Positions 22,483-51,336 of a stretch of 64,000 nt of DNA are shown in pieces (positions within the stretch are counted from its first letter, which is position 1; the number at the start of each line of letters is the position of its first letter). The stretch is from Trichocoleus desertorum ATA4-8-CV12 (GTDB lineage: Bacteria; Cyanobacteriota; Cyanobacteriia; FACHB-46): assembly GCA_019358975.1 (NCBI GenBank), contig JAHHIL010000002.1, positions 248,001 through 312,000 of the forward strand, in the 5' to 3' direction. The position numbers and the translations under genes are program-made. The notes under the pieces were generated by a model. It worked only from the letters and a program-made list of their open reading frames with translations, searched no databases and was not told the DNA's origin.

Positions 22483-22570
22483 TGACCTCTCCCCAACCCC
22501 TCTCCCACAGGAAAGGGGCTTTGAATCTAGCTCCCCTTCCCTAGCAGGGAAGGGGCTGGGGGTTAGGTCA
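22483..22570. repeat. Dispersed palindromic intergenic repeat
   Basis: An 88-base element whose ends are inverted copies (TGACCT at 22483 and AGGTCA at 22570) and whose interior has the pyrimidine/purine block CCCCTTCCC...GGGAAGGGG. It is the abundant REP- or MITE-like intergenic palindrome of many cyanobacterial genomes. It sits between lpdA and trpC. A decayed half copy occurs at 46118-46168. Confidence 0.7.
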
Positions 22571-49715: not shown

Positions 49716-49827
49716 TCCCATCTGTTCTTGGGGCTGTATGCGGGGGAGGGGGTTGGGGGCGATCGCTCTACTATCTTTTGGTAAGGTGTAGTGCGCTCTC
49801 ACCTTATCAATACGGCAAACCAAAGCC

Positions 49828-49888
49828 TTGGGGGCGCTTGCCCCCAAACCCCCGCTGAGGGACGGTTGCGTCCCCCAGACCCCCTCCA
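49828..49888. repeat. Tandem GC-rich hairpin repeat
   Basis: TTGGGGGC-GCTT-GCCCCCAA (49828-49847) is a perfect 8-base-pair hairpin, followed by GGGACG-GTTG-CGTCCC (49859-49874). The same two-hairpin block is a common dispersed repeat in cyanobacterial genomes. Confidence 0.7.
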
Positions 49889-49995
49889 GACGAAGTTGAG
49901 TGTGGGTATTTCGAGTCTTTGGTCGTGTTAGAGATTGGCTATTGGTTCGTAGCTCTTCACCCCTGTCTCCTCTCCCCTCACTTCCTGACTCCTCC

Positions 49996-50051
49996 TCCTT
50001 CATCCTTCCTCCTTCATCCCTCCTCCTTCATCCTTCCTCCTTCATCCTTCC
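49996..50051 (+). repeat. Tandem 14-base repeat (four units) abutting a start codon
   Basis: Four head-to-tail units of TCCTTCATCCTTCC (second unit with one change) end one base before the ATG of the glycosyltransferase. Each unit is two heptamers, so this is the heptanucleotide short tandem repeat type of cyanobacteria. It replaces any normal ribosome-binding site. Confidence 0.85.
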
Positions 50052-50052
50052 C

Positions 50053-51336
50053 ATGCTGCGATCGCGACTTGCCTACATTTCATTCGATACGGTGCCTGCG
50101 CCGAAGGGGGCGGCGGTGCATATTGCGGCTTTTACTCAGGCGTTGGGTGGGGCTTTTGGAGGGGTGGAGTTGGTGACGGTGGCTCCAACTTTGGAGGCTG
50201 TGGTGGGGCGGGAGTTATGGCCTCAGGTGCGGCAGTTGGCGTTGCCTGCGGTGGGGGATACTTTAATTCGTCGGGTGCTGGATTTTCGGCTGCGATTGGG
50301 GCAATGGTGGCAGGGGCGGCGGTTTGAGGTGGTGCAGGTGCGATCGCCTTTTGAGGGGTTTCCGATCGCGCTGAACAAGGACAAGTTGGGCGATCGCTTA
50401 ATTTTTGAGGTGAATGGGTTGCCGTCAATTGAGCTGAAGTATCGCTATCCAGCGGTGGCTGAGGATACGGAGCTGATGCAGAAGTTGGTGGCACAGGAGC
50501 AAGTTTGCTTGGATGCCGCAGATTTGGTGGTGACGCCGAGTGTGGTGACGCAAGCTTATTTGGTCAGTAGGGGAGTCGCTGCGAGCAAAATTCGCGTGAT
50601 TCCCAATGGAGTAGATTTGGAGATTTTCCGGTATCAAGCACCTTGCTCAGAGTGCCTTTTAGAGGCCCCCCTAGCCCCCCAAATTTGGGGGGAAATAGAT
50701 TCAAAGTCCCCCAAATTTGGGGGATTTAGGGGGCAAAGGTTTCAACCCCACCCTTTTCATTTGCTCTACTTCGGGACGCTATCAGCTTGGCAGGGGGTGG
50801 GGCTGACGATTGAGGCGTTGGCTTTGTACTGTCGAGATTTTTCGGGTCGGCTGACAATTGTGGGGCAGGGGCGGGGTGATCAGGCGATCGCGCTGCAAAA
50901 GTTGGCGGCGAAGTTGGGGGTCGCCGATCGCATGCAAATCATTGCGCCTGTTTCTCAAGGTGAACTTGTGAATTTGATGCACCAAGCGGATGCGATCGCG
51001 GCTCCTTTAACGGCAAACGATCGCAATTTGGTTCAGGGCTGTTGTCCCCTGAAGGTGTTGGAAGGGATGGCTTCTGGAACGCCTGTGATCGCCAGCGATC
51101 TACCTGTGGTGCGGGAATTTGGGACTGCTGATGAGCATTTTTTGTTAGTTCAGCCGGGTTCAGCGAAAGCTTTTAAGGATGCGATGGTGCGGTTAAAGAC
51201 AGAGGCAGAATTGGGGGCTAGGTTAGCGATCGCGGCTCGTCAGCGCATTGAAACTCACTACACTTGGCACCAAGCGGGCGCTGCTCTGGTGACTGCCTAT
51301 GAGGAACTGGGGATTAAGCGATCGCAGATGGTTTGA
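50053..51336 (+). CDS. Glycosyltransferase family 4 with in-frame repeat insertion
   Basis: A 427-residue GT-B glycosyltransferase starting MLRSRLAYISFDTVPAPKGAAVHI. The N-terminal domain ends near SKIRVIPNGVDLEIF; the C-terminal nucleotide-sugar domain follows with LLYFGTLSAWQGVGLTIEAL, and PLKVLEGMASGTPVIASDLPVVREF is the donor-binding motif. Between the two halves lies about 30 residues encoded by a palindromic repeat (50655-50742), in frame. There is no Shine-Dalgarno; the tandem array sits directly before the ATG. Base composition is G-rich compared with neighbours. It overlaps the convergent glycosyltransferase by 40 bases. The sugar acceptor is unknown. Confidence 0.85.
   Translation: MLRSRLAYISFDTVPAPKGAAVHIAAFTQALGGAFGGVELVTVAPTLEAVVGRELWPQVRQLALPAVGDTLIRRVLDFRLRLGQWWQGRRFEVVQVRSPFEGFPIALNKDKLGDRLIFEVNGLPSIELKYRYPAVAEDTELMQKLVAQEQVCLDAADLVVTPSVVTQAYLVSRGVAASKIRVIPNGVDLEIFRYQAPCSECLLEAPLAPQIWGEIDSKSPKFGGFRGQRFQPHPFHLLYFGTLSAWQGVGLTIEALALYCRDFSGRLTIVGQGRGDQAIALQKLAAKLGVADRMQIIAPVSQGELVNLMHQADAIAAPLTANDRNLVQGCCPLKVLEGMASGTPVIASDLPVVREFGTADEHFLLVQPGSAKAFKDAMVRLKTEAELGARLAIAARQRIETHYTWHQAGAALVTAYEELGIKRSQMV
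50655..50742. repeat. Palindromic repeat element inserted in a coding region
   Basis: About 88 bases with two CCCCCAAATTTGGGGG cores (50675-50692 and 50708-50723) and outer inverted arms GCCCCCCTAG / TTTAGGGGGC. It is the same type as palindromes dispersed in cyanobacterial intergenic regions. Here it is translated without a stop, between the glycosyltransferase domains. The ends are approximate. Confidence 0.8.

Follow-up and report, generated by a model that had tools for sequence, protein, structure and literature searches.

A GT4 glycosyltransferase gene of the cyanobacterium Trichocoleus desertorum ATA4-8-CV12 (genome G000) carries a copy of a dispersed palindromic repeat, in frame and between the two domains of the enzyme, as an insertion relative to its homologues. 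The repeat is very likely a small, non-autonomous palindromic element that multiplies in the genus, and that was inserted in frame at a flexible site where it is tolerated. The window is the whole stretch of 64,000 nucleotides that was analysed (contig JAHHIL010000002.1, positions 248,001 to 312,000). G001 and G002 are congeners, and L-numbers denote loci.

The repeat in the GT4 gene and its homologues

The core of the repeat is a double palindrome of 71-73 bp with terminal inverted repeats, one of the features by which MITEs are recognised. In the GT4 gene, two exact CCCCCAAATTTGGGGG palindromes lie inside inverted arms of 27 nt that are 85% complementary and have the termini GCCCCC...GGGGGC (Table 1). 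The CCCCCAAATTTGGGGG pattern, with up to two mismatches, has no other match in the window; dinucleotide shuffles of the window gave 0.04 matches on average, with two matches reached in one shuffle out of 100. The core scores 98.6 bits with the family's covariance model, a value that is not independent support, since the window copy was among the 13 copies from which the model was built. In RNA form the repeat has a folding energy of -46.5 kcal/mol (z = -4.5).

Table 1. Coordinates in the window of the GT4 gene, its insert and a second family copy
Feature	Position	Strand	Evidence or remark
GT4 glycosyltransferase gene (427 aa) with the insert	50053..51336	+	PF13439, PF13692, PF00534; AlphaFold2; Foldseek
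Core palindromic repeat, full model length (1-73)	50663..50735	+	Family copy
Left arm GCCCCCCTAGCCCCCCAAATTTGGGGG; contains the first palindrome (50676-50691)	50665..50691	+	Inverted-repeat arm
Right arm CCCCCAAATTTGGGGGATTTAGGGGGC; contains the second palindrome (50708-50723)	50708..50734	+	Inverted-repeat arm
Expanded interdomain linker CSECLLEAPLAPQIWGEIDSKSPKFGGFRGQRFQPHPF	50644..50757	+	About 29 residues longer than in 17 homologues
Second, degraded family copy, between two genes	22490..22563	-	Model match

The GT4 reading frame is uninterrupted across the repeat. Counted from the first GTG it has 478 aa, and its probable start is the ATG at 50053 (427 aa, with the stop ending at 51336). 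Pfam matches to the GT4 N-terminal domain (PF13439, PF13579) lie before the repeat, and matches to the C-terminal domain (PF13692, PF00534) after it. The palindromes, the open frame and the Pfam domains on either side confirm a preliminary description of this DNA, in which a palindromic repeat with two cores was proposed to lie in frame in the interdomain linker of a GT4 enzyme. The limits given there (50655-50742, about 30 residues) are off by a few bases at most. On balance the insertion adds about 29 residues (87 bp), made up of the core and 13-16 bp of non-core DNA, and EAPLAPQIWGEIDSKSPKFGGFR is a stretch of the insert peptide. Two other repeats lie upstream of the gene: short heptanucleotide-like tandem repeats (tccttcatccttcctcc) at 49980-50052, immediately 5' of the start codon, and a GC-rich inverted repeat ggggg...ccccc (gcgtcccccagaccccct) at 49825-49890, apparently of another family.

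Homologues were drawn from the same class, and their linkers were measured from RVIPNGVD to LYFGTLSAW, both motifs included. The linker has 66 residues in the window, 74 in G002 and 66 in G008, compared with 35-39 in 17 other homologues. Equal linker lengths in homologues without the repeat, which the preliminary description had named as the observation that would speak against an insertion, are thus not found. A long linker as the ancestral state is rejected, as the 17 homologues with short linkers are spread across many families. A related-locus search of the genome contigs with the GT4 protein returned no relative.

The GT4 orthologue of G002 is 87-88% identical and shares both the repeat and its junction; there, an arm that is 24 nt longer stands in place of the second palindrome, and the frame is kept. 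Because of this shared position, the insertion probably predates the split between G000 and G002. Independent insertion at the same site in the two species is unlikely. The core differs by only 3% between them, against about 0.58 at synonymous sites, as could follow from two separate arrivals, but both species share the junction TTTAGAGGCCCCC and have extra linker DNA on both sides of it that is alignable but diverged, and two strikes at one base would be improbable without target specificity. At L002:1478-1493 in G002, a second half-copy of the repeat encodes the last residues of GT4 (LVPPKFGGLGGQKLL), replacing the native C-terminus.

The linker of G008 (locus L003, 65% identity) was considered as a relic of the same repeat. 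This was dropped, since its DNA consists of 15-nt tandem units (encoding SQIHD) with a short hairpin (TCCGCGATAAATCGCGGA) after them, and is thus a different insertion. With an unrelated repeat in the same place in G008, the GT4 linker appears to be a site that accepts insertions.

The repeat family and its in-frame copies

BLAST gives 49 matches to the repeat in G000. The palindrome pattern is found at 18 places in G000, eight in G002 and one in G001, and at none in G008, G017 and G012. When matches of the covariance model were combined with those of BLAST and the pattern, and strands were merged, about 47 distinct copies were recognised in G000 and about 20 in G002. In a class-wide draw, 41 of 116 genomes (31 of 71 genera) have matches at E <= 1e-7. 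Annotated plasmids of Synechocystis carry copies between genes, and a plasmid protein search with the encoded peptides returned chiefly intergenic Synechocystis copies.

Twelve of the about 47 copies in G000 are in frame in conserved genes. These encode GT4, an MmeI-like methyltransferase, MenE, CoaX, CobN, two NRPS adenylation domains, FAAL (fatty-acyl-AMP ligase), an NAD-epimerase-like protein, an RluA-family protein, an Eco57I-like methylase and a tandem TPR protein. G002 has six (GT4, CoaX, the TPR protein, an Orn/Lys/Arg decarboxylase, LarC and a probably ferritin-like protein that matched no family). The search for other copies inside genes, which had been suggested beforehand, was therefore strongly positive, and the element, at first described as normally intergenic, is not strictly so, with about a quarter of the G000 copies in frame in genes. 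Outside the genus, in-frame copies occur in a helicase encoded on a Pseudanabaena plasmid and, between the condensation and adenylation domains, in an NRPS on a Gloeocapsa plasmid. Among 22 loci fetched from the class-wide search, the sole in-frame copy is in an Eco57I-like methylase (G094).

MenE, CoaX and CobN with the insert still score above their curated NCBIfam cut-offs. In alignments with PDB entries, LgrA residues 560 and 562 flank one NRPS insert, which precedes the YKTGD motif, and for the FAAL insert the flanking residues are 129 and 135 of 7r7g; with the CoaX protein, the alignment lies solely downstream of the insert. Several other copies likewise sit between domains or subdomains. 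Contig 40 of G000 (L128, L129) holds an NRPS/FAAL cluster with at least four clear repeat copies and one weak model match, and the two NRPS adenylation domains at these loci have the insert at the corresponding place before YKTGD.

In alignments of orthologues from G000, G001 and G002, the epimerase-like, FAAL and ferritin-like genes have counterparts with a clean empty site. Orthologues of CobN, LarC and the decarboxylase have other sequence where the insert stands, and inserts in the MenE, RluA-like and Eco57I-like genes are common to congeners but decayed, with the frame still kept. In the CobN linker of G002, a translated repeat (PSSLILPPSSLP) resembling tccttcatccttcctcc is found where G000 has the palindromic element. 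The ferritin-like gene offers the one exact empty site for a nearly complete core, and no target-site duplication is evident there, so that transposition of the core is inferred.

In G000, a larger element of about 165 bp, bounded by GCAGGGCTGTTTCAT ends (15-bp terminal repeats), encloses many of the copies. This element has both terminal inverted repeats and a target-site duplication, as MITEs do; the duplications are of 9 bp and were seen by eye around several copies, e.g. L034 and L041. With at most one mismatch allowed, its end sequence has 21 matches in G000 and a single one in G002. At L032, L033, L037 and L038 the larger element is apparently inserted in other core palindromes (CCCCCAGAATTGG-type flanks), and the elements are thus nested. 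CobN of G000 (L160:1520-1720) apparently contains the whole larger element in frame, as about 55 codons; a 9-bp target duplication beside this copy was not clear on inspection. The larger element has taken up a core and spread it within G000.

The consensus core is open throughout in two of its six frames, and 81 of the 222 frames of 37 intergenic copies (about 36%) are open. Genic copies are read in at least three frames and in either orientation; where the loop length differs, the frame changes mid-element. If genic copies sampled frames at random, the chance of finding 12 of 12 open would be 6e-6, a figure that is illustrative, as genic copies were recognised by their open frame and the count of 12 of 12 is partly circular. 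No gene split by the repeat was recognised in a non-exhaustive inspection of the ORFs that flank non-spanning copies; these ORFs look like different genes.

Constraint on the enzyme and fate of the insert

Between G000 and G002, dN is 0.058 and dS 0.58 outside the insert (ratio 0.10), whereas inside it dN is 0.24 and dS 0.06, over just 35 codons. Thus, the enzyme is constrained and the amino acids of the insert are seemingly not. Judged by these substitution rates, the GT4 gene is evolving under purifying selection since the insertion. In an AlphaFold2 model based on an 18-sequence alignment, mean pLDDT is 88.8, and falls below 50 only at residues 203-229, which are the repeat-encoded part between the two domains and are predicted to be disordered. 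Foldseek neighbours of the fold are MshA, sucrose-phosphate synthase and other GT4 enzymes. The first Glu of the EX7E motif is Gly here and in all aligned homologues (G329 is invariant), and is therefore a trait of the subfamily rather than a sign of decay. The donor-binding motif, called intact in the preliminary description, is so relative to this subfamily, but departs from EX7E at that residue.

Core DNA differs between G000 and G002 at two of 67 positions and the rest of the linker at 16 of 50 (Fisher p = 3e-5), suggesting either homogenisation with other copies or selection at the DNA or RNA level. Such low divergence of the core relative to its surroundings is unexpected for a purely neutral passenger unless gene conversion, which we infer, is active. 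The strength of the predicted hairpin, its position exactly between two domains (shared in kind by several further copies) and the conservation of the core would all suit a repeat that is used as RNA or DNA, with an mRNA hairpin that slows the ribosome between domains or affects mRNA stability, and is kept by selection. This is quite unlikely, however, because such an element would not fit into the linker of the other GT4 homologues, because congeners retain the shared copies in the MenE, RluA-like and Eco57I-like genes in decayed form with their frames intact, and because gene conversion would account equally well for the conservation.

Less likely still is a role for the encoded peptide as a functional part of GT4, e.g. 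as a new binding or regulatory segment. The insertion is common to two species and has stayed in frame despite a length change of 24 nt, as such a role would lead one to expect, but the segment is predicted to be disordered, and the dN/dS of the insert is far above that of the rest of the enzyme, although over few codons. Moreover, the same repeat is read in various frames and orientations in other proteins, and thus no particular peptide is favoured. Repeats pose difficulties in assembly, and a gene that has taken an insertion may be heading for loss, but a decaying gene or an assembly artefact is rejected as highly improbable here, given the same insertion with independent differences in the single-contig genome of G002, the low dN/dS outside the insert, a gene without frameshift or stop, and a fold predicted with high confidence.

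As a small, selfish palindromic element tolerated at a flexible site, the repeat would have entered GT4 in an ancestor shared by G000 and G002, with one of its open frames. The additional disordered residues would be harmless in the linker, and the insert would thereby have escaped removal by selection. Genic insertions that break the frame would be purged, leaving intergenic copies and in-frame ones in loops and linkers. The DNA of the insert may be held near the family consensus, perhaps via conversion between copies, and inserts in genes would then decay slowly, with an open frame as the sole requirement. Most likely, the encoded residues are a tolerated passenger, presumably translated with the protein. 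A more far-reaching idea, which we consider improbable, is that in this genus the repeat is a recurrent generator of enzyme linkers; it would enter interdomain and loop sites, have its DNA homogenised by conversion and change length in threes, so as to supply adaptively useful hinges or co-translational pause sites.

Orthologous sites that are filled, empty or decayed in three congeners make the arrival, toleration and decay of such inserts directly observable. In enzymes, among them NRPS adenylation domains and GT4 transferases, the inserts mark places that naturally permit insertion, and they are a pitfall for annotation and structural work.

Comparison with known repeats

Mobile repeats translated as part of functional proteins have mostly been regarded as peculiar to Rickettsia and Wolbachia, which are intracellular and have small effective populations. 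The dozen such genes in a cyanobacterium, among them genes for cofactor, RNA-modification and natural-product enzymes, suggest that the habit does not need an intracellular lifestyle. Small dispersed repeats of cyanobacteria were reportedly described by Elhai et al. in 2008. The present family is like such cyanobacterial repeats and MITEs (Elhai et al. 2008; Nezha) in being a very small mobile repeat and, given its presence across the class, may overlap with them. A literature search for the palindrome, and for repeats that lie in frame in cyanobacterial genes, returned nothing direct; Elhai et al. 2008 was outside its reach.

Tagged REP elements (PMC3733652) are also short, high-copy palindromes, and are found in cyanobacteria among other hosts; unlike the GTAG/CGTC REP elements, the family consensus has neither tag at its ends. 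Enterobacterial RU/ERIC elements are likewise MITE-like and mostly intergenic, and some of their copies lie within ORFs, fused into annotated reading frames (Delihas 2007, PMC2759123). However, they are 103-168 bp long and have different hosts, whereas the family here has orthologous empty sites and selection on a flanking enzyme.

The closest parallel in behaviour is with the palindromic elements of Rickettsia (RPEs), for which in-frame integration in unrelated genes is unusually frequent (PMC10969869). The protein-coding palindromic repeats of Wolbachia, cited in PMC3733652, are a related case. As in both, small palindromes occur between genes and also, in frame, within many unrelated genes that appear functional, and, as with RPEs, there is a dispersed family of strongly folding copies whose segment is missing from homologues. 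The likeness to RPEs drawn in the preliminary description therefore holds for behaviour (in-frame copies in unrelated, functional-looking genes at flexible sites), and is not put forward as sequence similarity or shared ancestry. The core of 71-73 bp compares with about 150 bp in RPEs, the host is a free-living cyanobacterium, and, while RPEs are described as encoding one conserved peptide, the cyanobacterial family is read in several frames and in both orientations. We read it as a cyanobacterial counterpart of the palindromic elements of Rickettsia and Wolbachia, but one that is shorter and makes use of several frames.
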